Assembly (NCBI GenBank): GCA_024399115.1
Contig: JAKSHZ010000009.1
Coordinates: 1 to 53,959 of the forward strand
DNA length: 53,959 bases
Source of the DNA: Bacilli bacterium
GTDB taxonomy: Bacteria > Bacillota_I > Bacilli_A > RFN20 > CAG-826
Direction of reading: 5' to 3'
A program made the position numbers and the translations under genes. The notes beneath the pieces were generated by a model. The model did no database searches. It was not told the DNA's origin and was given only the letters and a program-made list of their open reading frames with translations. This document shows positions 1-17,167 of the stretch, one piece after another; the first letter of the stretch is position 1, and each line of letters begins with the position of its first letter.

Positions 1-3000
1 CCAGAAATCTGAGATCTAAAATCTTGATTAACCATGTAATCATAGTTCGTATCAGTTAATAATTCTTGGAAATTATGTCCATTGCCATCAAAGACAAAAT
101 TAAATGCATTGTGTCCTACAGTCTTGAATTGAATATCGACGTTAACAGGAACAATTTTGACATTATAAGTTTCAATAACGAGTTCGTAACAATCTGAAAC
201 ATCGGTCACAAAACCGCCTCTATAAGATTTAATAGAAACATTGGATGTATCAACTGCTAAAGTAACAACACCATCAGCAACGTCCTTAACTGTGACTAAT
301 CTATATTTTGAAATGAGAGATGCAACATCGTATTTATCCTGACCAATCAAAATATAATCGTATGATGAGGCGCCTTCGTTATAAAGATTTGAAATAACGT
401 TTGTTGCACCACTTAAATCAGTAATAACATATCTAGTTTTACTAGTAGGTGAAGTTACACCATAACTATAAGTAACACCATCATATGGAACGCTTGTGAT
501 GCCATCAGCATCGACTCCTAATGAACTTAAATAAGGGATTGATACTTTAATTTCTCTTGGAGAAATAACCCAATCAACATCAGTAATTTCATTACTTAAT
601 CTATCGAAATATGTAATATCAAAGTTAAATGTCACGTTGTTTGAATAGCTATCCATGACAACGAAAAATAATTCTTCAGTTTCAGAACAAACTGTAGTAA
701 ATGTTTCACAATCAAAATATCCATAAACACCTGAAACAGATAAGTCTGTGGTAATTTTGCCTGTTAAATAGCTTTCATCATAAATGTTTTGGAGTGAATA
801 TTCAGTGCCCTTATAAACAACGTTAAAGTCGCTATCATCAGTGTTGAAATAAACATTTAAGCTAACTTTATTGTCAACGTATGCAGGGGCAACAAAAGGA
901 TCACCATTTTGGTCTACAATCAAATAGTTATTTAAAGATGAATAACCATCAATATCAGAGTTAATAGTCATTACTAATGGAGTAGTTTCAACTCCATAGT
1001 ACATTTTTTCATAGCCACTAACTTCTAAAGTATCTCCATCAGCAAGAGGATTATATTGAGAAATAGTTCCATTTGAGAAGAGCTCGACAGCGTCAGTCAA
1101 GTGATTTGTATATTTCCAATTAGCGAAATATGCATAATCAACATCGAATCTTAAATCACGTTTTGAAACTTCGAATGTGTATTCGCTGAATGAGAATGAG
1201 TAACATGAAGTTACATCTTCTAAACCACAAACGATTCTTGGGTTTCTAGCGACTAATTGATATCCAGTGTCTTCAACATTCTTGATGAATTCTTTCTCTG
1301 TAGTTCCTTTAAAGAAACCAAAATCAAGAGAATCTAAGCTATCAAGACCTTGTAATAATAAGTCTAAGTCACCATTAGTGCCTTGTGAACTTGTGAATAC
1401 ATAGTCTTCCATAGTTCTAACGCCGCCATCATAAGTGAATGAAATCTTGTGTCCGACTTCATCAACTGAGCCAACATGTGAATTTAAATAATGACCAGAA
1501 ATCTCAAATGGTGAAATCTCGTAATTGTATGTATAAGAAACGATATCGTAGTTATCTGTTACTTCTTCATTAGTAACAATGTTGTAAATATAGAAGTTAA
1601 ATGGAGCGTTTACTTGAGTAACGTTACCACTAGAATCAAGAGTTGCGTTCTTAACTGTTGAATAGTTGATCATTTCGAAAGCATCTTCAGAAGTAACTCC
1701 TGCAGTAACAACATAAGCCCCATTTTGTCTACTCAATTCAATGTTATGTTCTTCCCCATCATAAACAAATTCGAATTCTGATGTGTTGAACTTGATATCT
1801 AATGTTTTCTTTAAGACGTTAACTTTATAAACATATTTTGTAATTTCATAGTTATCGATAACATCAGCTGATGTAGCGTTATCAGTAATTTTAATAGAAT
1901 AATCTAAGTCTTTTTCGCCATTAGTCCAACCATAAACAAAACCACCATCAAAGCTTAATGTATGGATGCTTAAAAGGTCGAATTCACTTTCAACCGTGTA
2001 TGAACCATTTTCATATAAGTCTTGAAGAGTAAAGGAATTTCCATTGTATACATAGACAAACTTACCGGCTTCTAAAGAATCTGATTTATAGAATTTAATA
2101 TCGATGTTACGTTTATTAATTTTAAGAGTGTAATCGTTCTTATAAGTTTCAACATCGTAGTTGTTAGTAATATCAGTTGAACCATCAAATACGTGGATAT
2201 CATAGTTAATATCTTTGTATGTATCAGCATTAATCATTGGAGCATCTGCTTCAACAAACTTAATTGTATGTCCTGAACCTGGCGCAACATTTACTAAGGT
2301 CTTATTGTATGTAGCGTCATAAATACCTTGTAAAGAGTGTACTTGAGCATCGTAAAGAACTTCAAAATAAGAAGAATCTAAGTCGATATCAATTTCACGT
2401 TTATTAATGAAATAAGTGTATTGGTAATCTACGATTGAATAGTTGCCAGTAACTTCTTCGCCACTATCGTCTTCAATAACAATTTTATAATCTACTTCAT
2501 AAGTACCAGCGTTAGTTGGTTTTGTTTCTGAAACGAAGTATACAGTATGTCCTGGAAGAATCTCAGTATCAGAAGACATTACGAATCTTTGATCTTCTAC
2601 AGCATCATCTGGATTATATATTTCATCAAAGCAATGTTGTTGAGCGTCATAAGTGAAAGTGAACTCATCTTCGTTTAGCTCGATATCTACTTTTAATGGA
2701 GTAATTGTATATGTGATTGTCTTACCTGAAACATTATAATTTCCAGTTACATCTTCATCTGCACTATTACAAATAATAACGTCAAATGTGTAAGTTCCAC
2801 TATCTAAGACATCTTTTACTACTTCACACCTTTCGATAGAAATATAATCACCATCGTTTAAATCGATTAATGATTCATCATATGGCTTAGAAGCATCACT
2901 AAAGCTAGTGTAGACATCATGAGATAATCCATCATACTTAAAGTTATATTCAGATTCATTAAATGCAAAAGTTACATTTCTATACTTAACATCAAATTCA

Positions 3001-5156
3001 TAGGTGTGATCTACTCTGTTGTAGTTATCAGTTACATCACTTTCAATTCCAGTAATATCGTCATAGTGGATGACTCTAAAATCAGGTGTAATTTGATACT
3101 TAGTCTCACTAGCTTTATCACTAGTCATATCACTATCAGGATCAATCATAACATAGTCACCATCAGCAAGAATGTCATTAATACCTAATGTGCTTGAATT
3201 TGGTATGTCTAGGTCCATCCATCCGGCTTCAGCTGTTGATACACTTCTGTCGTCAGTTTCAAAATCGTATTTTTGTGCACTAAAAAGGTTGCTTAAAGAG
3301 TGGACAGTTCCGTCATATTTGAATGAGAAATAGTTGCTACCAACGGCAGTATTCTCAGCTGTTAAGAAATCGACATCGATCTTAGGAGCTTTAATTCTTA
3401 ATGTTGCTTCACCATCGTTAATAAGTCTAATATCGTAGTCATTATTAACTTCTAGTTCCCCTCTTGCTGGGTCCTTAATAGTAATAGGTTTTGTTTTATT
3501 TAATGAAATTGTGTGAGTGCCACTGTTTGCACTATCCAATTCATTATAGTTAAGTTCATATACGTCTCCATCAACGATACCAATTACAGAATATGCGCTA
3601 GAATCTTTCTTATAATCCTTAGTTCCGTCATACCACTTTTCTTGGTTCTTCAATGAGATTGTTAATGTTTGTTTACCTATTGCGAATAAATCGCTATCGA
3701 AAGAAATTTCGTAGTTTCTTAAAACTGACTCAGTCTTAGTTGAGTCACTGAAGATATTGAAAATTAATAATCCGTTTTCTTCTAAACCTGCATCGATATA
3801 ATCGCCATATGAGACACCATTTTCGTCTGTCTTATATTGAATTTCGATTACTTCTTTACTAGGATCTGCCAACGAACAATTATTAACAATTTTGTAAATT
3901 GGTTGAGTTGGATCATCAATTGGATATGTATCCTTAAGAGTTAAACGGTCATAGACCTTAACATTTGTGTATGAAATATCTAAAGGACGTTTAGAGATAT
4001 TCATCTTTCCATACACAGCAGTTACATCGTAATAATCATCAGTAACATCTACGCCTTTAGAGTTAATAATCTTATATGTAAATGAGTTATCAACGTTCTT
4101 GCATGCGTCAATTTGTCTTGAAGATTTTTCTGGCTTTTTAAGGTCGTCAAATTCAACAATTAACTCATCTCCAGGTAATAATTTACCTACGCGGTCATAA
4201 GCAAATTCTGATGCTTCAAATGGCTCACCATTATAAACTTTATCGATAGATTCGGAAGTTAATTTGATTTGGATTTTATTAACAATTAATGAATTAAAAT
4301 TCTTAGTAATACTATATTGGCTAGTAACATCTACGTCATCCTTATTGAGAATTTTAATTTCTCTTTCGTTTGAAATTTGTCCAATGTCAGTAATTGAAGG
4401 CGAAACGAAAGACTCTTCAGAGAATCTATCCTCATATGCGAGTTCACCTACTAAAGTATAATTATCATTTTTAAGAGGAGTTCCATCATAATCTCTACTT
4501 GCTCCAGGGAAATCTAAAGTAAGTTTTTTAGGAAGAAATTCAAGTTCTTTATCTTCAGTAGTAAAGTTATAACACTTAGTAACATCTTCGCCGCGTTCAT
4601 TGACAATAGCGACTTTGTCTAAGTCAACCTTTACATTAGTTTTCTTTGCAGAAATATCTTCGTATACAAAGTCATATTTATCGAGTTTATCGTATCCAAC
4701 TAAAGACACAGTATCTAATAATGGATCATCACCATAAGTAACTCTTTGAGCTGATCTAATATTAAGATCTAAATTTAAAGGTTTAATTGTATATTTAACT
4801 GGATCTGAATAATAGTAGGATCCAAAATTGTTTTCACTTCTTAAACGAGCTTCGTAATCACCAACAAAATATGGTGCTTCAGTAGTCCAACTATCATCAG
4901 AAGCATTTAATGGTCTATACTCAGTTTCTACATCACCACTTAAGAATGATGAGCCTTCTAACTTAATTGTTTCACCATAAAAGATTTCGTTTGCGCTGAT
5001 TGACACATCACCAACAAGACCTTTAGTCGAAACTAAGCCAACAGTAGTAGCAGTAGCAACACCTAAAGTTGCGATAATAGGCACACGAAATTTAAAGACT
5101 GCTGAAAGAGTCTTAGCGGCACGTTTTACGGATTTCTCGTATTTCTCGTATCTCAT
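1..5156 (-). CDS. giant MBG/Ig-like repeat surface protein, 3' end outside window
   Basis: The minus frame is open from the ATG at 5156 to the window edge, 1718 codons without a stop, so the C-terminus is missing. The first 20 or so residues are basic, then residues about 23-48 are hydrophobic (signal or membrane anchor). The rest is a chain of at least a dozen diverged modules of roughly 80-120 aa. Each tends to begin with an aromatic pattern such as FTYDG followed by HSL or LY, and to end with a DNY-x-x-x-x-Y-x-x-x-I-x-KR pattern leading into the next module. This layout matches MBG/YDG-type bacterial immunoglobulin-like repeats of adhesins and fibres (family knowledge). No sortase motif can be judged because the end is missing. 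It starts 2 nt after the stop of the transglutaminase gene and is the last gene of the operon visible here. Likely an extracellular stalk or adhesin; ligand unknown. Confidence 0.85.
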   Translation of the reverse strand, partial: MRYEKYEKSVKRAAKTLSAVFKFRVPIIATLGVATATTVGLVSTKGLVGDVSISANEIFYGETIKLEGSSFLSGDVETEYRPLNASDDSWTTEAPYFVGDYEARLRSENNFGSYYYSDPVKYTIKPLNLDLNIRSAQRVTYGDDPLLDTVSLVGYDKLDKYDFVYEDISAKKTNVKVDLDKVAIVNERGEDVTKCYNFTTEDKELEFLPKKLTLDFPGASRDYDGTPLKNDNYTLVGELAYEDRFSEESFVSPSITDIGQISNEREIKILNKDDVDVTSQYSITKNFNSLIVNKIQIKLTSESIDKVYNGEPFEASEFAYDRVGKLLPGDELIVEFDDLKKPEKSSRQIDACKNVDNSFTYKIINSKGVDVTDDYYDVTAVYGKMNISKRPLDISYTNVKVYDRLTLKDTYPIDDPTQPIYKIVNNCSLADPSKEVIEIQYKTDENGVSYGDYIDAGLEENGLLIFNIFSDSTKTESVLRNYEISFDSDLFAIGKQTLTISLKNQEKWYDGTKDYKKDSSAYSVIGIVDGDVYELNYNELDSANSGTHTISLNKTKPITIKDPARGELEVNNDYDIRLINDGEATLRIKAPKIDVDFLTAENTAVGSNYFSFKYDGTVHSLSNLFSAQKYDFETDDRSVSTAEAGWMDLDIPNSSTLGINDILADGDYVMIDPDSDMTSDKASETKYQITPDFRVIHYDDITGIESDVTDNYNRVDHTYEFDVKYRNVTFAFNESEYNFKYDGLSHDVYTSFSDASKPYDESLIDLNDGDYISIERCEVVKDVLDSGTYTFDVIICNSADEDVTGNYNVSGKTITYTITPLKVDIELNEDEFTFTYDAQQHCFDEIYNPDDAVEDQRFVMSSDTEILPGHTVYFVSETKPTNAGTYEVDYKIVIEDDSGEEVTGNYSIVDYQYTYFINKREIDIDLDSSYFEVLYDAQVHSLQGIYDATYNKTLVNVAPGSGHTIKFVEADAPMINADTYKDINYDIHVFDGSTDITNNYDVETYKNDYTLKINKRNIDIKFYKSDSLEAGKFVYVYNGNSFTLQDLYENGSYTVESEFDLLSIHTLSFDGGFVYGWTNGEKDLDYSIKITDNATSADVIDNYEITKYVYKVNVLKKTLDIKFNTSEFEFVYDGEEHNIELSRQNGAYVVTAGVTSEDAFEMINYSTVKNATLDSSGNVTQVNAPFNFYIYNIVTNEEVTDNYDIVSYTYNYEISPFEISGHYLNSHVGSVDEVGHKISFTYDGGVRTMEDYVFTSSQGTNGDLDLLLQGLDSLDSLDFGFFKGTTEKEFIKNVEDTGYQLVARNPRIVCGLEDVTSCYSFSFSEYTFEVSKRDLRFDVDYAYFANWKYTNHLTDAVELFSNGTISQYNPLADGDTLEVSGYEKMYYGVETTPLVMTINSDIDGYSSLNNYLIVDQNGDPFVAPAYVDNKVSLNVYFNTDDSDFNVVYKGTEYSLQNIYDESYLTGKITTDLSVSGVYGYFDCETFTTVCSETEELFFVVMDSYSNNVTFNFDITYFDRLSNEITDVDWVISPREIKVSIPYLSSLGVDADGITSVPYDGVTYSYGVTSPTSKTRYVITDLSGATNVISNLYNEGASSYDYILIGQDKYDVASLISKYRLVTVKDVADGVVTLAVDTSNVSIKSYRGGFVTDVSDCYELVIETYNVKIVPVNVDIQFKTVGHNAFNFVFDGNGHNFQELLTDTNYDYMVNQDFRSQIS

Positions 5157-5158
5157 AA

Positions 5159-8100
5159 TTAGACCACCATTAAGACTCCGAAGTCTTCAGTAATATCATA
5201 GAGTTCAGTAATATCGATAGGTTCACCATCGACGTAACGATAAATTTTCACTGAAACACTAGCATCAATTGAGCCTTTTTCTGCAAGAGTTGCAAAGGAA
5301 TCAACAAATAAATAATCTGGAATGCCATTAATTCCCAATAGATATGCATCTTGGAATGAATCATATTGAATATCATCTATAGTCAAATTGCTAACGGAAA
5401 CAGACATAATTCTTGCAACAAGTGGTCCTTCTATTGCTAAAGTTTCTTCGTCACTATTTTGATTTTCTGTATAGATTGTAATTGGTCTTCTTGAGACTTG
5501 AACTTTAACATTCTTAAATACACAAAGACCGTCTTCGTTTGCGAATTGACCGCCTTTTGAATTAGTAAATATATTAGTAACATCGTTACCTCTTTTATCG
5601 TTAATTGTGTAATAAACATCAGCTCTTAAGTCTGAATCTATAGCAGCTTCATAGTCGTATAAAGGCTCATCTGTTCCAGCTTTAACAACTTTTTGTGGAA
5701 CTACTCTATAAGAGCTTGAGAAGCTTTGATGACTCATTGTTCCTTTAGTTTCAACAACCTTAATATCAGTTAAATCATAAATATCAGTAACATCAACTCT
5801 ACTGCCAGAATATACTTTATTAATTTTTGGTAAAACTAAAGCAAGACTCATTGTGTTGAGCTCAGTTTGGATACCGCCACCACCAGGGCCTTTTCCGTAT
5901 GTATCATCGTCTTCTTCTTGTGGTTTAGAAACGTCTCTATCGTAATCGAAGTTACCAGGAGTACAATCCCAAATCATCCATCCAATGCCATCAACGAAAA
6001 CTTCTGTCCAAGCATGGCAAGTAGAAGGACCGACATAGCAGTCTTGTCCTGCGATACTTCTAGAAGCGAATCCAGTTACCCATCTAGCACTAATTCCCAT
6101 CCAACGACATAAGAGGGTTGCGAATGTTGCGAAGTGTTGACAGATACCTTCTTTGTAATAAACGAATGCGTCTAATGTATCAGAGAAACTATTTCCGTAA
6201 TCGAAATCTAAATTGTATGTGAAATTATCTGCTAAATACTTTCTAATAGCAGTTAACTTTTCAAACGTAGAATATCCTTCTCCACGATAGACACCTAAAC
6301 CAGTTGTTTGACAGATTAAGGCATGCTTTGTAGAGACATCTAAATATCTTCCGCTTTCTTGCAAATATTGAGAATATTTATTTCTAGCATTTCTAATTGC
6401 AGTAGCATTCGAAGAAGCACCATTCATTAATAATGAAATATTTGCATCGGTCGTATCAATCATAGTTGAGATGAAAGTTGCCTTAGTACCAGCGTTTTGT
6501 TTTAAACCTGGAGTAGCGTCGTTCTTTTGAGTATACTCGCTATATGCAGGGACTAAACCATTGGTCATGTTGCTCAAATATTCAACTTCAAATGTCCTTG
6601 TCTTGAAAATAGGATTACTCTCTGCGGCTGCATTTACATAAGAGAAAGGAGAAACAGAGTCAGTTGAAGGTACTTCATAACCACCATTAACGTTACTCCA
6701 TCCTGTTCCTGAGTAATCACCATATGATGCAGATTGGAAATAAACTGTACCAGAGTAGTCAGATTTAAATTTAATGACAGATGAAGATTTTCCATCTTTA
6801 CCAGGGAAGCCTTTGTTACCAGGACCTTTATTTGAAAGTTGAGTTTGAATATCACCACTTCCACCAGCAATATCATTATTTAATTGATTTGATAATTTAT
6901 CTCTATCACTACCAAGATCTGATCCAGCGTCTTCAGGTGCAGACTCAATATTTAATGGGTTTAAAACAACCCAACCAAGGTTATCCATATATACTTCTGG
7001 ACAACTTGAAAGTAAGTCAGCGCCAACATAGCCAACGCCTTTTCCTTCCTCAGCTTCAGTCAAGAATCCATGTGCGATTCTTGCAGGAATACCGAGTGAA
7101 CGGAACATGAAAATAGCATATGTTGTAAGATATTCAAAATTACCAACTTTTTTATTATTGATTTCTAAAATAGGATCTCCAGAGACTTTCTTAGTGCTCA
7201 TTGAAGATTTATAATTGCTTTCCATATATTCAGCAAGTTTTGCAATAACTGAATAATCAGGAGATTCTCTATTGAAAACTAAACCATTAGCGTCACATTC
7301 AGTTTTAAGAACGCTATATTCATTAGGCATTTCTAAATAATGTTCGTACGCGTATGCGCGATATTTTTGTTCTTTCTCTTTTACATCACTTGAGAAATCA
7401 GCAAGTCTAAGTGCGTTAAATAATGTTGGCTCATATGGAGAGAAGTATCCTTCTGTAACATATTCATTATTTTGAACAGAAGTTAAAGCATAGCAATCTG
7501 AGTTAGCTGGACGTGAATTATCTGATTCATATTCTGGAACTGGATATACTTTAAAGTCTTTTAAATACTTAAATGAATATGTGTACTTATAAGAATCTAA
7601 GTTATAGCCAATCATCTTCATTAAGCTATTAATTTGAGGATTCTTAAGTTTATCCGCGACGAAATTAAGTGGTTGATAGTCGCCAATACCAACTGAGTTT
7701 CCGTTATAGTAATCGTTACCGACCCATTTCTTCTTTTTAGGAGACCATTTACCCTCACTTTCGGTTCTAAAAATCATTGGACCGCTATAAGGTGCGCTTA
7801 ATTCGAACTCGAAAGCTGGAATCTTTGGAAGATCATCTAAAGAAAGATCTAAAAACTTCATTAAATCTTCAAGAGAAATGTTGAATTTTTGCATCAATTC
7901 TAGGAGTTTTTCCCAGTCAATATCTTCAGGATTAATCTTAGGAATCTTGAAGTTTGCGTAAACTGCTTTTGCAGTAAAGTTATAGTACATGTAGTTAGGT
8001 GTGATATCTGGAATACCATTTCCTGATGTATCCCAACCTAAGAAAGTATAGAAGTTTCCATCTTCATCTCCTTCTTTTTCAGGAGCTTCTGGAACATCGA

Positions 8101-8296
8101 TTTTTGTACCTCTTTTTTGAGTAGTCTCTAAAAGAAGAACTTCATCTGCGTAGAACTCACCATGGTAACTTCTAACGTTATCTGTAGCAAAATCAATAAC
8201 ACCGTTATCTGCTAAGACTAAGCTAGTAACGACTGTAAGTGTGCTTAAAAGACCTAATGAAGATCCTAAAATTCCTATGAGCTTACTCGTTTTCAT
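5159..8296 (-). CDS. exported protein with tandem transglutaminase-like domains, first one catalytically dead
   Basis: 1045 aa. I place the start at the ATG at 8296, not at an upstream in-frame codon, because GGAGG lies 8 nt before it; this overlaps the preceding gene by 14 bp. Residues about 6-30 form a signal peptide or anchor. An InlB-like repeat follows (about 45-105, core YTFLGWD and MYYNFTA). A first transglutaminase fold (about 375-445, SLGIPARIAHGF) has Phe387 where the nucleophilic Cys belongs, and the His and Asp positions are also replaced. A second fold (about 705-785) keeps the triad: Cys719 in GICQHF, His761 in CHAWTEV and Asp777 in WDCTP. The C-terminal 250 residues are Ig/MBG-like. 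A protein-crosslinking or protease-like role outside the cell is known for the family; the substrate is unknown, and the adjacent giant repeat protein is an inferred candidate. Confidence 0.88.
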   Translation of the reverse strand: MKTSKLIGILGSSLGLLSTLTVVTSLVLADNGVIDFATDNVRSYHGEFYADEVLLLETTQKRGTKIDVPEAPEKEGDEDGNFYTFLGWDTSGNGIPDITPNYMYYNFTAKAVYANFKIPKINPEDIDWEKLLELMQKFNISLEDLMKFLDLSLDDLPKIPAFEFELSAPYSGPMIFRTESEGKWSPKKKKWVGNDYYNGNSVGIGDYQPLNFVADKLKNPQINSLMKMIGYNLDSYKYTYSFKYLKDFKVYPVPEYESDNSRPANSDCYALTSVQNNEYVTEGYFSPYEPTLFNALRLADFSSDVKEKEQKYRAYAYEHYLEMPNEYSVLKTECDANGLVFNRESPDYSVIAKLAEYMESNYKSSMSTKKVSGDPILEINNKKVGNFEYLTTYAIFMFRSLGIPARIAHGFLTEAEEGKGVGYVGADLLSSCPEVYMDNLGWVVLNPLNIESAPEDAGSDLGSDRDKLSNQLNNDIAGGSGDIQTQLSNKGPGNKGFPGKDGKSSSVIKFKSDYSGTVYFQSASYGDYSGTGWSNVNGGYEVPSTDSVSPFSYVNAAAESNPIFKTRTFEVEYLSNMTNGLVPAYSEYTQKNDATPGLKQNAGTKATFISTMIDTTDANISLLMNGASSNATAIRNARNKYSQYLQESGRYLDVSTKHALICQTTGLGVYRGEGYSTFEKLTAIRKYLADNFTYNLDFDYGNSFSDTLDAFVYYKEGICQHFATFATLLCRWMGISARWVTGFASRSIAGQDCYVGPSTCHAWTEVFVDGIGWMIWDCTPGNFDYDRDVSKPQEEDDDTYGKGPGGGGIQTELNTMSLALVLPKINKVYSGSRVDVTDIYDLTDIKVVETKGTMSHQSFSSSYRVVPQKVVKAGTDEPLYDYEAAIDSDLRADVYYTINDKRGNDVTNIFTNSKGGQFANEDGLCVFKNVKVQVSRRPITIYTENQNSDEETLAIEGPLVARIMSVSVSNLTIDDIQYDSFQDAYLLGINGIPDYLFVDSFATLAEKGSIDASVSVKIYRYVDGEPIDITELYDITEDFGVLMVV

Positions 8297-8783
8297 AATG
8301 AGCCTCCATAGGATCTTCGTTAGGTGTTTCATCTTCTGTCTTATCAGTGATTACACCATGTGGGTTGAATTCAAAATACACCGGAGTTGCAGTGAATGAA
8401 TAATACATTTTATTAGGTAACACATCTGGGATATTGTCTTGATTAGTGTCCCATCCGATGAAAGTATAAGTTGTGCCATCTTCGCTTTCTGGTCTTTCTT
8501 TATAGTTATCAAGATTGACGTCAATTTCAAATTTTTCCCCTCTTTTGAAAGTCTTATCAGCGATGATTTCTTCGTTATAATCAAGGAAGACACAACGGTA
8601 ACTTCTAACTGTAAAAGTTAAAGAAGGAATGACTTCGAGCATAGCTAAAACCCCAATAGCAATAACTATTAAGGCTGCAGTGATGCCAACAATTGATCCA
8701 AAAGAACTAATGCCTTTTGAGACTTTGTTTAACTTCTTATATTGCTCATGTAAGTCGATTACTTTAACTTTCTTAGCTGCCAT
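8283..8783 (-). CDS. membrane protein with one extracellular InlB-like repeat
   Basis: 166 aa. It has a short basic N-terminus, one hydrophobic segment at about 24-50, then a single InlB/Listeria-Bacteroides-type repeat (about 58-145) with core YTFIGWD and MYYSFTA, and an acidic tail. The repeat is clearly homologous to the N-terminal module of the transglutaminase protein encoded immediately downstream, including the calcium-site-like D-x-N-x-D-N-I-P-D stretch. The start follows the stop of the upstream ATPase gene by 2 nt (TAG TT ATG) with no clear Shine-Dalgarno, so it is probably translationally coupled. Function unknown. Its matching module suggests it docks with, or assembles beside, the transglutaminase protein. 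Confidence 0.8.
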   Translation of the reverse strand: MAAKKVKVIDLHEQYKKLNKVSKGISSFGSIVGITAALIVIAIGVLAMLEVIPSLTFTVRSYRCVFLDYNEEIIADKTFKRGEKFEIDVNLDNYKERPESEDGTTYTFIGWDTNQDNIPDVLPNKMYYSFTATPVYFEFNPHGVITDKTEDETPNEDPMEAHYENE

Positions 8784-8785
8784 AA

Positions 8786-10243
8786 CTATACATTCATGAT
8801 TAATTTTTGAATTGTAGCAATACAGACAGGCATTTCATCTTGTCCGAAAATTTCATTGATTTTTGCTATCAATTCTTCGCTCTTAGTTTTTAAAACTAAT
8901 GGGTTTGTAGCTTCAAGTTTTCTTAAAACTTTCTTAGCTAAAAGGTCATCGAGTGCTTCTGTTTCAGTACCACCACATGCGATATAAATTGGTACATATT
9001 GTTCGATTTGTCTTCTGATACGGTTACCGAAAGTAACTGAGAAGTTCTTTGTTAAGAAATTATCGAACTCTTTGATTCTATTTCTTCCACGCTTTGTCAA
9101 TGCGTATTCTCTCTTTGCTTTGTTGACAAGTTCAGTGAAAACATCTTGGCTAATTGTGATTGGTTCGAAGTCATCTTCACCAACGAATGGTTCACATCTA
9201 TAGTCAAGGTTCATGATCATACTTCTATCGTAAACTTTGTCTGAAATAGCGAATGTAGAGTCATCGTTATTAGCGGTTCCGATAAATGTCACGTTATTAG
9301 GTAAGATTAAGTTACCGTTTTTAAGTTCTTTAGGGTCACGTTTAGAGACAATTGTTGTAACTTCTAGGATTCTTTCCTTAACTGTTGGAAGCTCGAGTAA
9401 TGAAAGGAATTCAGCGAAATAGTATTCAACACGAGCAATGTTCATTTCATCGAGAACGATTAAGAACATTTTGTTAGTTTTATTAGCCTCATAAAGTTTT
9501 TCAAGAAGCATTGATTCGTTGAATTTACCTGTGAATTCGTTATAGTAACCGATTAAGTCGCTTCTTTCCTTCCACATTGGTTGAACTGGAATAACTGTAG
9601 TTTGAACACCAGTAAATCTACCCCAAGCAACTGGGAGAGAAGTTTTACCAGTACCAGACATACCTTGAAGAATTAAAATCTTTGTACAACCTAATGAAGT
9701 AATAAATCTTCTAATATCTTGGATTGAATAGTAAAGTGGGTTACCTTCAATTCTTGAAGCATAGCTTCTGAAACGACGGCAGATATACTCTAAAGTAAGT
9801 CCTGGAGTAGTCACTACTCTTTGTTTCTTTGGATATAATTCATCTAATTGAGAGAGTTTTTGGAACCTCCTTAACTTAGACTTTTTCTCATCTTCGTTCT
9901 TCTTATCCATGACCTTAGTTGCAGAAACTAATTTACCATGAGAATCGACATATTCTAATGTAACTGAGATGACGTCTGGGTTATTTAAACGTGCAACACA
10001 TCTAAATAAAACGCAGAGTAAGAATAAGAACATAGCAAAAATGCCACCTAAGAACATATACGAAGTGAATGTGTTCTCTAAGTTAATCAAATCAGTACTG
10101 TCTTCTGGCATAGTTTTGAATTTATGTAAGAAGCAAAGCAAGATGATGATTAAGAATAATAAAGCTACGCCAGCAAAAAACACCATCAAGACATCTTGAA
10201 GTGGAACATATATCGTGCTGCGTCCTTTTTTCTGTTCTGCCAT
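8786..10243 (-). CDS. membrane-anchored McrB-like AAA+ ATPase (two N-terminal helices)
   Basis: 485 aa. Two membrane helices (about 18-40 and 61-83) precede a cytosolic AAA+ module. Walker A is GMSGTGKT at 194-201, Walker B is LIVLDEMN with Asp265 and Glu266, sensor 1 is GTANND with Asn325/326, and an Arg-finger candidate is Arg340 in VYDRSM. The LIGYYNE segment after Walker A and the DEMN form of Walker B are typical of the McrB/dynein-type AAA+ group. No DNA-recognition domain is present, unlike restriction McrB. It is a close paralogue of the ATPase at 12148-13518, with near-identical cores and different N-termini. It lies between the DUF2357/coiled-coil gene and the InlB-repeat gene. GTP versus ATP preference cannot be read from the sequence. 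Family call is firm; function in this context is inferred. Confidence 0.88.
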   Translation of the reverse strand: MAEQKKGRSTIYVPLQDVLMVFFAGVALLFLIIILLCFLHKFKTMPEDSTDLINLENTFTSYMFLGGIFAMFLFLLCVLFRCVARLNNPDVISVTLEYVDSHGKLVSATKVMDKKNEDEKKSKLRRFQKLSQLDELYPKKQRVVTTPGLTLEYICRRFRSYASRIEGNPLYYSIQDIRRFITSLGCTKILILQGMSGTGKTSLPVAWGRFTGVQTTVIPVQPMWKERSDLIGYYNEFTGKFNESMLLEKLYEANKTNKMFLIVLDEMNIARVEYYFAEFLSLLELPTVKERILEVTTIVSKRDPKELKNGNLILPNNVTFIGTANNDDSTFAISDKVYDRSMIMNLDYRCEPFVGEDDFEPITISQDVFTELVNKAKREYALTKRGRNRIKEFDNFLTKNFSVTFGNRIRRQIEQYVPIYIACGGTETEALDDLLAKKVLRKLEATNPLVLKTKSEELIAKINEIFGQDEMPVCIATIQKLIMNV

Positions 10244-10263
10244 TTTCCTTTTTCCTTTATTAA

Positions 10264-12144
10264 TTAGTCGTTATTTTTTTCTTTCTTTTCTTTTGGTTGA
10301 CCTTTATCGATAACGAAGTGGTTTTTCTTAATGTACTTCTTAGCTTCCTTCCAAGCTTGTTCGAAGAACTTTAAGAATGCTTCTCTATCTTCTTCTAATC
10401 TAACGAAGTCATCACGAGTGACGAATTCAGTAGGTTTAACTGAATCTCTCTTGAGTTGAGTTTTCAAAGAAATAATCTCAGCTTCATAAGCTTTATTAGT
10501 TTCAGTTAAGACTTCGTTTTGACCCTTTGTCTCATCACATTCGCCTTTTACAGTGTTATATTTCTCTGTGAGATCGTTAGTAGTTGTTGATAATTTATCT
10601 TCGTAAAAAGCAGTTTTTTCTTTCATATCAGTGTCATATTTTTCATTTAATGAACTGATTTGAGCGCCATAGTTTTCTCTCATTGAAGAGATTTGTGACT
10701 CATAGTTATCTCTAGTTTCATCGAGTTTAGCTTGGTAACTATCTCTAAGTTCAGTGATTCTACTTTCGTATGCTTCAGTAACTTCAGAAACTCTTCTTTC
10801 TGATTCCGCTCTTGCTTCATTGATTGCAGCTGTGTAACGGTCAATTGTCTCAGTAAGTTTCTTTTCGTGTTCATCGTTAAGAGCGATGATTTTGTTTTCA
10901 CATTCTTCTTCAATTTTGTCGATCTTCTCATTACATTCGACTTTCATCTTTTCAATAGCTTCTTCGTTAGCTTTGATGAGTTCGTCCATTTGCTTTTTAT
11001 GAGTGACTTTAAGATCTCTAATAACTTCATCTACTTCACTTAAACGTTTTTCGATGATTCTATAAGCTTCTTCAAATTCGATTAAGTACTCTTCAAGAGT
11101 TTTTCCATCCATATCTGCTTTCGCATGGATGCTTTTTAACTTCTTTAAAAGTTCATTCTCTCTATTGAGTTTTTCTTGTTTTAAATATTCTTGATATGCT
11201 TTTTCAAGTTCACCTTCTAAACCAGTGCCGTATGAATAAGTAATGAATGAGGTAAGCATTACTAATTCAGACATATCGTTAAGGATAGCTGGTTTAAATG
11301 GGGAGAGTGACTTTTCAATTCTTTGAACAGTGAAGCCATCTCCTTGATAGTTAGCGATAAAGTCGAAACATGTAAGTGATTCTCTGAAGTTTCTATTCAT
11401 CTTTAATACGTTAGTCTTTGTGATAGGACGTTTGACCATATCAGCTTTAGCGACTGTAAGCATTAAAGGAGTTTTCAAAAGAACGAGAATGTTCGAAAGC
11501 ATATCGTTTAATCTATCGATAATTGCTTTCGCAGAGTTTCTATTTGCGTATAATTCATCGTTAAGTCTCTCTTCGTGGAGGGAAATATCGATGTTCATTT
11601 TTCTATTTCCGAAGTCAATTTTTCTCTTATAGAATGCATTAGCTTCGTATTTGTTAGTCATTTCCTTAATTGCGTTTAAACGTTTTGAGACAAAGTCTCT
11701 TAAGTAGACTAACGTTGTGTAAATGACTCTATTTTCATAGACCGCAAAATCACTTTCCTTTTGAATCATGAGCATCTTATCTGGAATGACACTTGCTTGT
11801 GCGTTTGGATCAGGTTCATGAGTGATATAGTTAGAATGTTTTGCTAAATCTTGAATTGAAGAAACTGAAGTTTTTCTAATCTTTTCGATTGGTAAAACTT
11901 CACCGTCATTTCTAATGAATTGACGTTCTTCAGCGATGGCTTTTTGAATGAATGGGATACCTCTTTCAATAGCTTCTACCCAGTCCTCTTCAATTGTGCA
12001 TGTTGAAAAGTAGACAACGATGTCTTCTTTTGCTTTTCCACCTGAAGTGCCGTTACTCTTTTTAAAACGTACACTATCGGCGTCAAGGATGGTTGTCTTT
12101 TTATATTCTGTAAAAGCTCTGTAAAGAATATCTAATGAGTTCAT
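10264..12144 (-). CDS. McrC/DUF2357-like N-terminal domain fused to a long coiled coil, no nuclease
   Basis: 626 aa, soluble, no signal peptide. Residues about 80-310 resemble the DUF2357/McrC N-terminal region: a VIPDKM stretch, then FAVYENRVIYTTLVYLRDF, then a LLKTPLML and ITKTNVLKMNRNF segment, in the usual order (recognised by eye). Residues about 325-590 are a long charged coiled coil with imperfect 14-residue steps around YES-QI and NYG-AQI. The C-terminus (about 600-626) is Lys-rich. I see no PD-(D/E)XK nuclease motif, which McrC proteins normally carry. The gene sits between two McrB-like ATPase genes, the expected partner position for an McrC-type activator. It starts 3 nt after the upstream stop. 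It could bridge or stimulate the ATPases; the DUF2357 assignment is moderate, the coiled coil is certain. Confidence 0.75.
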   Translation of the reverse strand: MNSLDILYRAFTEYKKTTILDADSVRFKKSNGTSGGKAKEDIVVYFSTCTIEEDWVEAIERGIPFIQKAIAEERQFIRNDGEVLPIEKIRKTSVSSIQDLAKHSNYITHEPDPNAQASVIPDKMLMIQKESDFAVYENRVIYTTLVYLRDFVSKRLNAIKEMTNKYEANAFYKRKIDFGNRKMNIDISLHEERLNDELYANRNSAKAIIDRLNDMLSNILVLLKTPLMLTVAKADMVKRPITKTNVLKMNRNFRESLTCFDFIANYQGDGFTVQRIEKSLSPFKPAILNDMSELVMLTSFITYSYGTGLEGELEKAYQEYLKQEKLNRENELLKKLKSIHAKADMDGKTLEEYLIEFEEAYRIIEKRLSEVDEVIRDLKVTHKKQMDELIKANEEAIEKMKVECNEKIDKIEEECENKIIALNDEHEKKLTETIDRYTAAINEARAESERRVSEVTEAYESRITELRDSYQAKLDETRDNYESQISSMRENYGAQISSLNEKYDTDMKEKTAFYEDKLSTTTNDLTEKYNTVKGECDETKGQNEVLTETNKAYEAEIISLKTQLKRDSVKPTEFVTRDDFVRLEEDREAFLKFFEQAWKEAKKYIKKNHFVIDKGQPKEKKEKNND

Positions 12145-12147
12145 AAA

Positions 12148-13518
12148 TTATGCGTTCATTGCCATCTTTCTAATTGTTTGTTCACAAACAGGCATACAGT
12201 CTTGACCGAATACTTCGTTGAGTTTAGCAACGATTTCTTCGCATTTGTTCTTAACTGTAATTGGGTTTGTTGCTTCGAGTTTTCTTAAAACTTTCTTAGC
12301 TAAAATATCATCGAGTGCTTCGAGTTCAGTTCCACCACATGCGATGTAAATAGGAACATATGCTTCGATTTGCTTTCTGATACGGTTACCGAAAGTAATT
12401 GAGAAAGTTTTTGTGATATAAGCATCGAATTCTTTGATTCTATTTCTACCACGCTTTGTAAGAGCGAACTCTTTCTTAGCGTTTTTGATTAAGTTATTAA
12501 ATGTATCGATAGAAATAGTTACAGGTTCTGCGTTATCTTCGCCGATAAATGGTTCACATCTATAGTCTAAATTTAAGACCATTGATCTATCGTAAACTTT
12601 ATCTGAAATAGCGAATGTAGAGTCATCGTTATTAGCAGTTCCAATAAAGAAAACGTTATCAGGAAGTAATAAAGTACCACTGTGTAATTCTTTTGGGTCC
12701 TTAGGAGAAATTGATGTAGTAACTTCAAGGATTCTTTGATCTAATGTTGGTAATTCGAGTAATGAAAGGAATTCTGCGAAGTAATACTCAACACGAGCGA
12801 TGTTCATTTCATCGAGAACGATTAAGAAAATCTTGTTTGTTTTATTAGCTTCGTAGAGTTTTTCAAGAATCATAGATTCGTTAAATCTACCTGTGAATTC
12901 GTTATAGTAACCAATAAGGTCACTTCTTTCCTTCCACATTGGTTGGACTGGGATAACTGTAGTTTGAACACCAGTGAATTTACCCCAAGCAACTGGAAGA
13001 GAAGTTTTACCAGTACCAGACATACCTTGGAGAATCATGATTTTTGAAACACCAAAGGATGCGATAAATCTTCTGATATCAGTAATTGAATAGTAAAGAG
13101 GGTTACCTTCGATATGAGAAGCAAAGCTTCTAAATCTACGGCATAAATGTTCCAAAGTTAATCCTTCAGTTGAATCGATATGTTCCTTTGATGGGAACTT
13201 CTTATCTAATGCGGATAATTTTTGGAATCTGTTTCCGTCTGTTTTAACATCTCCACCTTTAGTTGTGGTTTTTGCTTTGTGTTTTCCATCGCCATCTTGG
13301 ACGATTGTTTCACTACCATGTACCTTTTCAATTCTTTCACTAGTTAAGTGTTCATTAATAATGAAAAGAATTGCAATGGAAATGATAGCCAAAGCAAAAA
13401 TACAAATATAAACGATAATCGCAATATTTGATGTGAAGATATCTAAGAAAGATTCGCCTACTGTGCCTAATGGGCTTTCAGCTTCTTCAAATGTAAGGAG
13501 TGCGAAATTAGTTTTCAA
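12148..13518 (-). CDS. membrane-anchored McrB-like AAA+ ATPase (one N-terminal helix)
   Basis: 456 aa with a TTG start at 13518. GGAGG lies 8 nt upstream and no ATG occurs nearby. It overlaps the previous gene by 11 bp. One membrane helix (about 31-54), with an acidic N-terminus likely outside, is followed by a Lys/Gly/Asp-rich linker and the AAA+ core: Walker A GMSGTGKT at 165-172, Walker B with Asp236 and Glu237, the LIGYYNE insertion, sensor 1 GTANND, and VYDRSM as Arg finger. From about residue 95 onward it is nearly collinear with the 485-aa ATPase at 8786-10243, down to the same C-terminal helical lid. The pair probably arose by duplication and may form a mixed ring, possibly with the degenerate homologue encoded just upstream. 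No DNA-binding domain is present. Confidence 0.88.
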   Translation of the reverse strand: MKTNFALLTFEEAESPLGTVGESFLDIFTSNIAIIVYICIFALAIISIAILFIINEHLTSERIEKVHGSETIVQDGDGKHKAKTTTKGGDVKTDGNRFQKLSALDKKFPSKEHIDSTEGLTLEHLCRRFRSFASHIEGNPLYYSITDIRRFIASFGVSKIMILQGMSGTGKTSLPVAWGKFTGVQTTVIPVQPMWKERSDLIGYYNEFTGRFNESMILEKLYEANKTNKIFLIVLDEMNIARVEYYFAEFLSLLELPTLDQRILEVTTSISPKDPKELHSGTLLLPDNVFFIGTANNDDSTFAISDKVYDRSMVLNLDYRCEPFIGEDNAEPVTISIDTFNNLIKNAKKEFALTKRGRNRIKEFDAYITKTFSITFGNRIRKQIEAYVPIYIACGGTELEALDDILAKKVLRKLEATNPITVKNKCEEIVAKLNEVFGQDCMPVCEQTIRKMAMNA

Positions 13519-14731
13519 TTCTGTTACCTCCTTTATCGAATAAGACTAAGTACTCTTTAATAACTTTGATTGTTAAAGGTGTATTACCTGCACCAAAGTA
13601 TTGTTCGAGAGTTCTTTCTAAGTCGTGATCATCTACGTAATCTTGTGGACGTGAAGTGATGATAGCTTCTGAAATAATATTTCTTGCTAAAGAGATATCG
13701 ATTGCTTCATTTTCTTCAACTCCAGCAGAGAGTAAGACTGTTAAATATTGTTCGTTTCTTCTAACGATTTTGTTGTGCATTGAGTAGCCGTTAATATCGC
13801 CGATGACATTTGATAATGCATCGAATTTTCTCCAGCCATCTTCACTGACAGCAACTTCGTTCATAGCGTTTCCTAAGCTTCTAGTAAGTTCAGTTATGCT
13901 GAGGCTAACGCCGAGTAATTGAGGTTGTCTTTCAACTTCAGTTTGTTCAACTGGTAATGTGGCGACATATCTAAGTAATCTTCTTGAGATATCGAAAGGA
14001 ACTTGTCCTTCTTTTAATGAGAAGATAATGAAGAAGTTATTTGGGATAGAAACACTTCTTCCTTGACCAGTTAAGTAGTTTTCACCAGTTGGGTTATCGA
14101 TGAAATAGTAAAGAGGGCGGAAGAACTCTAATACTTTCTTGCTCTCTAAATTGTTAACGTAGAAGAAAACTGGTTTTTCTGGATCATTCTTTGCAGCATT
14201 GATTGCTGGGAAAATGTTTGATAAGTGTGAAATGCTATCGTTTTCTTCACTTGCATCAAATGAAAAACGGTTTAATTCAAACATTTCAAAGAATGATTTT
14301 AGGAATTTTTCTGATGGTTCTTTTTCAAATCTAATGAAATGTGAATAGTTCATTGCAGAAAGAAGGTCTAAACCAAATCTTCCTGATAAACCTCTTGATT
14401 CCATAGCTTCATCAATAAGTGAAGCCATTTCTTTATATGTTTTATATTTGCTCTTTTCGACCATTCTGTCTTTGAGCTCATTACTGTATAAATCGTCTTC
14501 GTCGTCAAAAACTTCTTCAGCGTAATACATAGCTGTTCCGTCTTCGTTAAAAGTAATTGTCTCTTCTTCAACCTTCTTTTTAGATTGAGAACGGCGAACT
14601 ACTTCATTAGAAAACTCTGCAACTCTGATAAATCTACCACTACCAAGAATTGCGACATTTGTATCTTTGATAGTTACAACGTCTTTATCTAGTAAGCCTG
14701 TTTTTTCTTGGATATATTTATTCTCTTTCAT
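13508..14731 (-). CDS. degenerate AAA+ homologue of the McrB-like ATPases (pseudo-ATPase)
   Basis: 407 aa from the ATG at 14731, chosen because AGGA lies 8 nt upstream; a TTG two codons earlier is too close to it. No membrane helix. It aligns by eye with the C-terminal half of the two neighbouring ATPases. IPNNFFIIFS matches LPNNVTFIGT (sensor 1 strand) and VPFDISRRLLR matches FAISDKVYDR. The lid segment NKIVRRNEQY matches NRIRRQIEQY, followed by AGVEENEAID against GGTETEALDD. At the Walker B place it reads FFYVNNLES instead of LIVLDEMN, and at Walker A a charged stretch with EKEPSEKF replaces GMSGTGKT, so nucleotide hydrolysis is very unlikely. Presumably a structural subunit of the AAA+ assembly. 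Homology is well supported by several collinear blocks; role is inferred. Confidence 0.8.
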   Translation of the reverse strand: MKENKYIQEKTGLLDKDVVTIKDTNVAILGSGRFIRVAEFSNEVVRRSQSKKKVEEETITFNEDGTAMYYAEEVFDDEDDLYSNELKDRMVEKSKYKTYKEMASLIDEAMESRGLSGRFGLDLLSAMNYSHFIRFEKEPSEKFLKSFFEMFELNRFSFDASEENDSISHLSNIFPAINAAKNDPEKPVFFYVNNLESKKVLEFFRPLYYFIDNPTGENYLTGQGRSVSIPNNFFIIFSLKEGQVPFDISRRLLRYVATLPVEQTEVERQPQLLGVSLSITELTRSLGNAMNEVAVSEDGWRKFDALSNVIGDINGYSMHNKIVRRNEQYLTVLLSAGVEENEAIDISLARNIISEAIITSRPQDYVDDHDLERTLEQYFGAGNTPLTIKVIKEYLVLFDKGGNRIEN

Positions 14732-14741
14732 AAACAAAATC

Positions 14742-15494
14742 CTATAAACCTAAGCTACCATATCCAACACCATAGATGATGTCGTAGTCTTGTTGACAGA
14801 TTGAGTAGCTAGTGAACCAAACGAAAACAAAGAGTGCGACTAAAATGAGTCCGATAACAAATGGAACAACTGCGAATGGTCTTCTTTTAATTGTGTATGT
14901 TCCGTCTTTTGTATCTTCTGGAGATGATTCAACAACTGGTTGTACGTTAGAAACTTCAGCTTGAACACCTTCAACTGGCATAGCAACTTCATCAGAAACT
15001 GGAGCAACTGGTGCTACTGGAGCGACAGGTGCAGTAGGCGCTGCATATTGTTGAACGTGTGGAACATCAATTGATTGAGGAACTTCTTGAGCTGGCTTTT
15101 TAGCACCAAATGGTTCAGGAATTCTTCTTACATCAACGAATTTGTCGTTAACAAAGCCTTTGCTAGCAAAGACTGCTCTTTCAACAAAAACTTCTACTGC
15201 GTCACATTCTCTTTCAACTGGAATTGGTTCATCGATTTCAAATTCACCAGCTAAGTGATAACAATCTGGAATATAGAACTTACCTTCTTTTAAGAATTGG
15301 CCTGTAGCGTCATATTGTCTAACAGAGAAAAGAATAGAGAGTAAAGCGTCTCCTGCTTTGTTAGATAAAGTGAGATAAGCATATCTGTTATTTTCTTTAT
15401 CTGCGTAAACACAAGCGTCATTCATTACGAAGCTGTTTTTTCTTGTGTTAACGATTCTTGCGTGAATATTTTTAAAATATTTTAACTCGATCAT
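14742..15494 (-). CDS. tail-anchored protein with Ala-Pro-Val linker
   Basis: 250 aa, function not recognised. Residues about 1-125 form a soluble, beta-rich domain (alternating hydrophobic strands, no Cys pair that would suggest zinc). Residues about 130-200 are a low-complexity linker with Ala-Pro-Val repeats and Glu/Val/Pro-rich sequence. Residues about 209-230 (FVIGLILVALFVFVWF) are a single membrane helix near the C-terminus, leaving a short tail with YGVGYG. The topology suggests a cytosolic domain tethered to the membrane on a flexible arm. It sits between the 227-aa membrane protein and the degenerate AAA+ gene with gaps of 10-15 bp, so it is probably a membrane adaptor of the same machine. 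Start ATG at 15494 with a GGGAGG site. Confidence 0.75.
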   Translation of the reverse strand: MIELKYFKNIHARIVNTRKNSFVMNDACVYADKENNRYAYLTLSNKAGDALLSILFSVRQYDATGQFLKEGKFYIPDCYHLAGEFEIDEPIPVERECDAVEVFVERAVFASKGFVNDKFVDVRRIPEPFGAKKPAQEVPQSIDVPHVQQYAAPTAPVAPVAPVAPVSDEVAMPVEGVQAEVSNVQPVVESSPEDTKDGTYTIKRRPFAVVPFVIGLILVALFVFVWFTSYSICQQDYDIIYGVGYGSLGL

Positions 15495-15508
15495 ATTATC
15501 TCCCTCCC

Positions 15509-16192
15509 CTACTTAGCAACGTGATTACGTATGCCGAATAACCAAGCGAAACTCAAAGGTAAACCTAAGATTGATGCGCTAGCAATAGCATATAAATAAA
15601 TTGGATTAAAGTATTGCATACCTTCATCACTTACATAAATGAGCATGACTATAATGCCTGATGCACAAGCAATAGCTGCACATAATGTTGGGAAAATAGC
15701 AGCGAATGATAAAGCGCCACCACTTGGGTTAGCTGATTCATCGCTTCCAGATTTTTTACCGTTAGCACCATCAACTACGATTGCAGCTTGCTCAACGTTC
15801 TCACGGATTGGAATGCTAACCATTTTTCCTTTTGCGAAATCAAAATCTAAGTATGAAACTTTTCTCTTGTTTGAATATGTTACTAATGTGATAGTTGCTT
15901 TTTTGATATTATCTTGAGCAACGAAAATTAATAAATCACCCATCTTAACGATAGATTTGAATGTATTTTTAATAAGTACGTTATTTGTTAATAAACTACC
16001 ATCAGGGCCGAATGAACTAGGGTTTAAAGCTTTGATACGTCTACTTCTGCTAACTTTAATAACAATGATAGGCAATAAGATACCAACAGCGAGTAAGACA
16101 GGGTTAACCATCATAAAAATACTGTAAAGCCAGCTTGCAAATTCTTGGTTTGCAATTAATTCTTCACTAACTTCGAATGTTAAGAAATTCAT
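15509..16192 (-). CDS. three-helix membrane protein of the AAA+/transglutaminase operon
   Basis: 227 aa, not recognised. One membrane helix (about 27-47) is followed by a basic stretch (SRSRRIKAL), a beta-rich domain (about 55-140), a short Gly/Ser linker, and two further helices (about 160-187 and 197-220). Basic residues after helix 1 suggest the middle domain is cytosolic. The start ATG at 16192 lies 2 nt after the preceding stop and has AAGGAGG upstream. Co-transcribed with its neighbours. Likely a membrane subunit or scaffold; no enzymatic motif seen. Confidence 0.75.
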   Translation of the reverse strand: MNFLTFEVSEELIANQEFASWLYSIFMMVNPVLLAVGILLPIIVIKVSRSRRIKALNPSSFGPDGSLLTNNVLIKNTFKSIVKMGDLLIFVAQDNIKKATITLVTYSNKRKVSYLDFDFAKGKMVSIPIRENVEQAAIVVDGANGKKSGSDESANPSGGALSFAAIFPTLCAAIACASGIIVMLIYVSDEGMQYFNPIYLYAIASASILGLPLSFAWLFGIRNHVAK

Positions 16193-16194
16193 AA

Positions 16195-17091
16195 TTATTT
16201 ACCCTCCTTTTTCTTTAATTGAGAAATAGTAATTGCTTCTAAATCTTTTTCGTCATCCTTAAATAAAGAAACGTAAGAAGGTTCTTCGCCTGCTACTTCT
16301 TTAACAACGATTGGTTTCTTCAAAGGGATCTTAGCTTTGAAAACTTCGTATCTGCCTGTTAAAGATGAAAGGGAAACAACTCCGAACCATGCTAAAGCAA
16401 GTAAGAAAACAAGTACCCAGATACCGATTTCAATTAATGGATACCAGATTTCTTGACCCATACCTAAGACATAAATCATTCCATAAACGCCACCAGCGAC
16501 GATTGGAACTGAAAGAATGTATTCTCCAAAATAGCTCCAGAAGATTCTTCCTTTAATTCCTTTTGAATAATGTCTAGCAACGAACATGATGTCACTTGTT
16601 TCACCATCAGTGAGATTTGCGCCGACAAATCCATAAGCGAAACTATTAATGAATCCCACTAATAATGCAATTGAAGAAATTGCAATGTGAATAATCATTA
16701 AAACTAAATCCATTAATTCGTTATAAAGTTCTGAATTAACATTAACAATTTGTGCCTTGTAAATCATAAGTGGAACATAACTTAAGAATGCAACCATACA
16801 AATTGTTAAGTCCCTAACTAAATAAGCGCCAGCTAAACCAAAGTATTTCTTAGGATTATTAGATCCATGGAAAGCCTCTGCTAAGTTGAACTCTCTAGTT
16901 TCAGCTGCCATCTTTGCTACGTTTGAGTCTGCAATTGCAAAGAATGGTCTTAAGAAAAATACCAATTTTCCAACAAAGGAAACAAAAAGGTACATTAAAA
17001 AGCTGACTCTTTCTTTAAAGGACATTCTGCGATAGACAAAACGACCTTCGACCCAGCCTTTTTTGAAGTAATAACCGCTTTTTTTATTCAT
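16195..17091 (-). CDS. polytopic membrane protein, first gene of the operon
   Basis: 298 aa from the ATG at 17091. The longer open frame upstream runs through nusG in another frame and is spurious. The chosen start follows the promoter at 17114-17143 and a GGGG-containing weak ribosome site. An aromatic, basic N-terminus (KKSGYYFKKGW) precedes about five membrane helices: about 28-52, 85-107, 125-155, 180-205 and 212-238. A basic and acidic cytosolic tail of about 55 residues contains PLKKPIVVKE. I do not recognise the family. As first gene of the ten-gene unit it is the natural candidate for a membrane platform or channel of the AAA+ system. Confidence 0.75.
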   Translation of the reverse strand: MNKKSGYYFKKGWVEGRFVYRRMSFKERVSFLMYLFVSFVGKLVFFLRPFFAIADSNVAKMAAETREFNLAEAFHGSNNPKKYFGLAGAYLVRDLTICMVAFLSYVPLMIYKAQIVNVNSELYNELMDLVLMIIHIAISSIALLVGFINSFAYGFVGANLTDGETSDIMFVARHYSKGIKGRIFWSYFGEYILSVPIVAGGVYGMIYVLGMGQEIWYPLIEIGIWVLVFLLALAWFGVVSLSSLTGRYEVFKAKIPLKKPIVVKEVAGEEPSYVSLFKDDEKDLEAITISQLKKKEGK

Positions 17092-17113: not shown

Positions 17114-17143
17114 ATTATTGCATTTATATAAAATAAATGTAAA
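17114..17143 (-). promoter_or_regulatory. promoter of the ten-gene AAA+/transglutaminase operon
   Basis: On the minus strand TTTACA (17138-17143) is followed after 18 nt by AATAAT (17114-17119), with TG one base upstream of it as an extended -10. It lies just downstream of the nusG terminator and about 22 nt before the ATG at 17091, so the operon appears to have its own promoter. Confidence 0.55.
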
Positions 17144-17144
17144 G

Positions 17145-17167
17145 AAAAAAGCAGTCGAGACTGCTTT
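17145..17167 (-). terminator. intrinsic terminator after nusG
   Basis: Perfect 9-bp inverted repeat AAAGCAGTC / GACTGCTTT with a 2-nt spacer, followed on the minus strand by a run of T. It separates nusG from the downstream operon. Confidence 0.85.

Follow-up and report, generated by a model that had tools for sequence, protein, structure and literature searches.

In the contig JAKSHZ010000009.1 of a Bacilli bacterium (53,959 nucleotides (nt), analysed whole and called the window hereafter; one contig of a 188-contig, 2.13-Mb genome), ten minus-strand open reading frames (ORFs) at positions 3-17091 form one tight unit adjoining nusG, in which two McrB-type GTPases with different predicted membrane anchors (AAA1 and AAA2) enclose a DUF2357/coiled-coil protein. 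We found that this unit is a conserved, membrane-linked variant of the McrBC branch without a detectable nuclease, undescribed in the open-access literature searched, and the near identity of the two GTPase cores within many related loci points to their concerted evolution through repeated gene conversion; this homogenisation of twin cores within loci is new here. From its first gene (gene 10) to its last (gene 1), the unit encodes a protein with several transmembrane segments (TMs), a three-TM protein, a one-TM protein, a Walker-less AAA+ protein, AAA1, the DUF2357/coiled-coil protein, AAA2, a small single-TM protein, a transglutaminase protein and a giant repeat protein, all TMs being predicted by a simple hydropathy scan. 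The features at its centre are as follows:

12148..13518, minus strand: gene 6 (AAA1), McrB-type GTPase with one predicted N-terminal TM (AAA_5 match, Walker A/B, NxD)
12148..13251, minus strand: AAA1 core (367 residues), one twin tract
8786..10243, minus strand: gene 4 (AAA2), McrB-type GTPase with two predicted N-terminal TMs (AAA_5 match, Walker A/B, NxD)
8786..9889, minus strand: AAA2 core (367 residues), the second twin tract
10264..12144, minus strand: gene 5, DUF2357/McrC-type protein with a predicted long coiled coil
13508..14737, minus strand: gene 7, Walker-less (pseudo) AAA+ protein, from its alignment to AAA1 and a predicted model

A scan with AAA1 of contigs from one genome per species gave 292 related stretches, the best 80 of which yielded 66 loci; loci of the window's family and phylum were added, and duplicates (L059, L061, L140 and L141) as well as loci of a second type (L047-L058 and L144, called C157-type below) were removed. 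Among the resulting 77 loci with a window-type GTPase, 49 have two Walker-bearing copies. When both copies were complete (42 loci), the last ~366 residues of AAA1 and AAA2 were 97-100% identical in 28 loci, and three of four further loci agree, so that 31 of 46 loci show at least 97% amino acid identity. These homogenised cores mostly have near-identical DNA, while their anchors differ (one TM versus two). Indeed, identity reaches 100% over ~1.1 kb of DNA in nine of the 46 loci, one of them in a single-contig genome (L138, 1.55 Mb, with 1101 of 1101 bases identical between the cores), and the twins of a named, cultured strain (L091, Anaerocaecibacter muris) are 98.3% identical at the nucleotide level. 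In all of the 15 homogenised loci checked, identity falls to background at the core start, and in 14 of them it ends at the stop codon, L086 continuing for ~60 bases. Moreover, identity within a locus exceeds identity to the AAA1 of any other locus in 39 of 46 cases, including the window (76.5 versus 74.5%), and the two copies of one locus are sisters in the tree in 33 of 44 loci (support 0.72 for the window pair). Note that 15 of the 46 loci are not currently homogenised; the window is among them, its cores being 77.1% identical in amino acids and 76.5% in nucleotides.

Duplicates that carry different anchors and yet are alike at silent sites argue for repeated gene conversion. In 28 of the 31 homogenised loci, at least 94% of the fourfold sites agree (the share is lower in L069, L094 and L103), which makes selection at the protein level alone an unlikely source of the identity; an assembly artefact is also unlikely, given the single-contig genome and the named strain mentioned above. 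The N-terminal parts show 29.4% (AAA1-AAA1), 27.2% (AAA2-AAA2) and 25.4% (AAA1-AAA2) identity between loci, and 30.2% within a locus; since whole-length identity of these parts fails to separate AAA1 from AAA2, the argument from the anchors rests on the TM counts. Two proteins sharing one ring would need matching interfaces, and homogenisation of the twins thus suggests a mixed AAA+ ring, of which homogenised twins would be a testable sign. As a comparable pair, a long and a short product are annotated for the single Escherichia coli gene mcrB.

In the window, both GTPases carry the Walker A motif GMSGTGKT, the Walker B motif LIVLDEMN and GTANNDD, i.e., the signature of the NxD McrB branch (Walker A/B and NxD, usually followed by D or E). 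Their AAA_5 matches have E-values of 1.7e-5 (above the curated cut-off) and 1.9e-4 (21.9 bits for a cut-off of 22), and among solved structures McrB was the sole match of AAA1 (three sequences, E-values of 4.4e-5 to 9.8e-5). Gene 7, in which a motif scan found no Walker A match, aligns to AAA1 (E-value 7e-7), and its predicted model (pLDDT 75, pTM 0.72) matches AAA+ structures of MoxR/McrB type (best E-value 3.2e-5; 3.5e-4 for McrB 6hz4). Gene 5 is a DUF2357 relative with the helix bundle and stalk of McrC and CnuC; its model shows a predicted helix of 213 residues and one shorter helix at the end, and Foldseek gave no match for this model at an E-value of 0.001. Family scans found no nuclease match in gene 5, which a very divergent nuclease could escape, and the PD-(D/E)xK nuclease that McrC homologues carry in McrBC restriction is not seen there. 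Altogether, the original prediction, made from the sequence alone, of two membrane-anchored McrB-like AAA+ ATPases, a dead third AAA+ homologue and a DUF2357-like coiled-coil protein is borne out by these motifs, matches and models, and the homology to McrB and DUF2357 supports its proposal of McrB/McrC ancestry.

The unit is also conserved in its composition. By title, the 66 loci come mostly from uncultured Clostridia and some Bacilli, and gut or faeces are named in 14 of the titles. The gene 5 homologue lies between the two GTPase genes in all 49 two-GTPase loci, and surface genes are located in or beside the unit in all 47 of these loci that have flanking sequence: directly downstream in 44, after one gene in the window, and upstream in two (L040 and L065). 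A pseudo-AAA+ gene (profile match above 15 bits) lies directly upstream in 37 of 48 loci, an unassigned gene taking its place in 11. Within the phylum, a gene 5 homologue with an E-value of 1e-40 or better occurs in 12 of 392 genomes, including the window's own. The AAA+ half alone, or surface genes placed elsewhere, was seen in none of the 47 loci, and the neighbourhood comparison therefore supports the expected linkage of the AAA+ half with the transglutaminase and repeat proteins. The gaps from gene 9 to gene 2 run from -50 to +20 nt, but genes this close need not act together, and the two halves might simply share a transcript and work apart; we consider this very improbable because the linkage holds in 47 of 47 loci, including those with an upstream surface pair.

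Five loci (L067, L068, L072, L079 and L102) have one GTPase and no gene 5 at the locus; elsewhere in these genomes, gene 5 was not found in four and gave a weak match in the fifth. A short contig (L085, 3,008 bases) runs from the end of gene 5 through a GTPase gene to the start of gene 5, and is probably an assembly-graph loop caused by identical GTPase repeats. As identical direct repeats invite assembly collapse, we do not claim the single-GTPase loci as a real variant; note that assemblies from short reads may be broken or collapsed here.

The predicted surface proteins of the window are encoded by the last two genes of the unit:

5159..8332, minus strand: gene 2, 1057 amino acids (aa), N-terminal TM/signal and tandem transglutaminase domains
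3..5156, minus strand: gene 1, giant repeat protein truncated by the contig edge, 1718 aa

Gene 2 matches Transglut_core (E-value 1.5e-36) in two stretches, the only such matches found in the genome assembly, and is indeed the transglutaminase protein that was announced; its domain at residues 693-791 keeps the C-H-D pattern and looks intact, and the domain at 362-459 lacks it and is degenerate. Gene 1 starts with MRYEKYEK...FKFRVPII, a basic N-terminal tail and TM like those of the second surface protein in relatives, and carries eight copies of a YDGxxH-like motif, mostly ~100 aa apart. This short motif alone repeats, since a self-BLAST gave no off-diagonal match at an E-value of 1e-3, and the remainder of gene 1 has no second match in the genome assembly. 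The predicted giant repeat protein is present, but its MBG label is not confirmed by Pfam, where gene 1 has no match at an E-value of 0.1. Similarly, an InlB-repeat protein was expected in gene 3, which has no Pfam match; the corresponding Flg_new repeat was seen in gene 2 instead, and weakly (E-value 0.012, below the cut-off).

In relatives, a basic tail of ~25 residues followed by a TM usually opens the second surface protein, and a loose form of this pattern fits 46 of 55 second or later surface proteins versus 2 of 60 first proteins. An LPxT[GAS] motif was found in the last 60 residues of none of the 72 complete surface proteins. Where two or more surface proteins are complete (21 loci), a transglutaminase domain is detectable in 17 and a recognisable C-H-D pattern in 13; the domain is thus not universal, as shown by L088, L106, L115 and L142. 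Long versions of the pseudo-AAA+ protein are fused to GH3_C and Fn3-like domains (three scanned: L075, L091 and L143), and these domains would fit a cell-envelope or division factor, in which the ring would set where the wall or septum is remodelled, with the transglutaminase and GH3 proteins acting on the wall. A precedent is PcdA, a McrB relative in Staphylococcus, and the first membrane gene of L075 has a weak Colicin_V (CvpA) match, below the cut-off (E-value 1.8e-4); nevertheless, PcdA works without a McrC-type partner (PMC10602043), no division family is found among the matches of the ten genes, and the patchy spread of gene 5 homologues in the phylum speaks against a core division role. 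We regard this explanation as unlikely.

A second cassette of the same genome bears on the role of the McrBC core. Contig C157 (L056, 1060-15303) carries a further NxD GTPase and a DUF2357-type/coiled-coil gene, together with five single-TM proteins (in three of which an AWF/AWY motif lies close to the N-terminus), a nucleosidase-like protein, two proteins with EAL domains (EAL and GGDEF-EAL) and a SipW-like protein (E-value 4.8e-9, which does not reach the curated cut-off). It is CoCoPALM-like and fits the CoCoPALM systems as named in print, which are barely described there (PMC11090510). One genome thus has two versions of a membrane McrBC core, each adjoining its own exported module, and in our judgement this pairing is the best evidence that the McrBC core may serve surface structures. 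A single-contig genome (L144) harbours one more cassette of C157 type, again with exported proteins of AWF type.

Machines of the McrBC type are known for cutting nucleic acids. The sequence data are best explained by a GTP-driven, membrane-bound McrBC descendant that would handle the co-encoded surface proteins, the most likely of the readings considered, to which we give about even odds. In such a machine, AAA1 and AAA2 would co-assemble into one mixed ring under the membrane, gene 5 would reach with its stalk into the pore, in the way McrC engages McrB, and the pseudo-AAA+ protein would be a regulatory or docking subunit; the ring may then pull, fold, assemble or release the surface pair by its cytoplasmic tails, and the transglutaminase domain, in proteins that keep it intact, would crosslink or process surface peptides. 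The original prediction had the AAA+ ring, at the inner face of the membrane, control the assembly, export or crosslinking of a surface fibre, which stays a hypothesis. More tentatively, and in our view less likely than not, a restriction motor may have been rebuilt as a transmembrane surface machine, with interchangeable, gene-converted cores on different anchors in a mixed ring and a coiled-coil stalk of ~30 nm (a length estimated from the 213 residues) that would turn or lever in the pore, moving or assembling giant surface proteins by their tails. If true, this widespread variant would exemplify how a motor from defence can be redeployed to serve the cell envelope, in poorly studied bacteria of which at least some live in animal guts.

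The unit might also be an anti-phage (conflict) system, whose ring senses infection at the membrane and whose surface or membrane proteins are the effectors. Indeed, plasmid GTPases in CoCoNuT-like operons are among the nearest relatives outside the family; the five that were opened have 32.5-39.9% identity and show GTANQDE, GTANHDE or GTANTDE, and in three of them the partner is annotated DUF2357. In addition, the PADLOC model PDC-M26A matches both GTPases, strongly but partially (best stretch 311-430 of 724), with no further PDC-M26 model among the PADLOC matches, and the gene 5 coil has weak ZorA matches. In the flanks, 109 of 133 eligible genes from 41 loci were scanned (up to four from each locus, possibly including cassette genes or spurious ORFs), and eight PADLOC model-gene matches (mad3, AbiLi, AriA, mad8) were found; these are few, however, beside many ordinary families. 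Against defence also stand the lack of any nuclease or HEPN family match in the ten genes and the large surface proteins linked in all 47 loci; the plasmid and phage records all fall short of 80% coverage of AAA1 and of 60% identity, and gene 5 of L075 has no relative in viral contigs, in a search that reaches close relatives only. A defence role is thus improbable, and less likely than a machine handling surface proteins.

The remaining features of the unit and its upstream boundary are listed below:

16195..17091, minus strand: gene 10, first gene, multi-TM protein of ~298 aa, ORF from MNKKSGYYF
15509..16192, minus strand: gene 9, 227 aa, one TM, a ~110-aa domain and two TMs
14742..15494, minus strand: gene 8, 250 aa, soluble domain and C-terminal TM
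8283..8783, minus strand: gene 3, single-TM protein of 166 aa, encoded between gene 4 (AAA2) and gene 2 (transglutaminase), from its ORF and predicted TM
17114..17143, minus strand: promoter-like site, TTTACA-18-AATAAT with TG
17148..17167, minus strand: terminator-like stem-loop after nusG

The listed start of gene 10 (17508) overlaps nusG (17195-17806; Pfam NusG match), and a start at MNKKSGYYF (298 aa) places the end of the unit at 17091; a Pfam scan of the 30-aa piece at 17000-17091 gave no match, and gene 10 homologues have the same place in L039 and L041. The ORF strands, the gaps and this start confirm the tight ten-gene minus-strand unit. Its own promoter was also proposed, and one promoter-like site (17143-17114) does follow the terminator-like stem (17167-17148), both between nusG and gene 10, but such sites are not above chance in the region (4 versus a shuffle mean of 6.2). 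The predicted TMs of gene 9 lie at 27, 169 and 203, and three predicted TMs are found in 32 of 32 rows directly upstream of gene 8 homologues (31 distinct, as L059 repeats L039); in 32 rows, the gene 8 profile scores above 25 bits at the corresponding place. In L064, L068, L069 and similar loci, the one-TM gene 8 homologue sits within a far longer protein (~1,000-2,000 aa). Gene 3 has no family match in Pfam and other family scans.

Among known systems, MoxR-vWA-transglutaminase operons also have an AAA+ gene beside transglutaminase and membrane genes, whereas the window has McrB-type GTPases and no vWA or DUF58 match in a Pfam scan of its ten visible genes. McrBC type IV restriction shares the AAA+ GTPase and the DUF2357 stalk protein, but in the window no nuclease domain is found on gene 5 and the N-terminal parts of the GTPases are short and TM-bearing. 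PcdA of Staphylococcus aureus is likewise a McrB-family protein acting outside restriction, and differs by its EVE-domain fusion, degraded Walker motifs and absence of a McrC-type partner (PMC10602043). According to PMC11090510, the CnuB/CnuC proteins of CoCoNuT resemble the window by their NxD GTPase, coiled coils and DUF2357 partner, often without a nuclease; the window differs by its predicted anchors and surface proteins and by the lack of a match to HEPN, another nuclease or a helicase in the ten visible genes. CoCoNuT GTPases are fused to a long coiled coil; the N-terminal parts of the window's GTPases are short and contain predicted TMs. The original prediction knew of no described system with this combination, and no description of this operon was found among the open-access titles and abstract beginnings, among the matches listed; CoCoPALM is nonetheless a named neighbour in print. 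As sketched in PMC11090510, CoCoPALM has an NxD McrB-type GTPase with TM, a coiled-coil McrC homologue and a link to surface structures, of which the window shows the predicted TM anchors on its GTPases and the predicted 213-residue helix of gene 5. CoCoPALM is reported with an FtsB-like TM/coiled-coil fusion on the GTPase and with signal-peptidase/pilus genes (no signal-peptidase family match was found in the ten visible genes, and the operon may continue beyond the contig end), and the window has twin GTPases, a pseudo-AAA+ protein and transglutaminase/repeat proteins. The clade of these authors may already include the present cassette, and its closest published kin are the CoCoNuT McrBC branch and CoCoPALM (PMC11090510).
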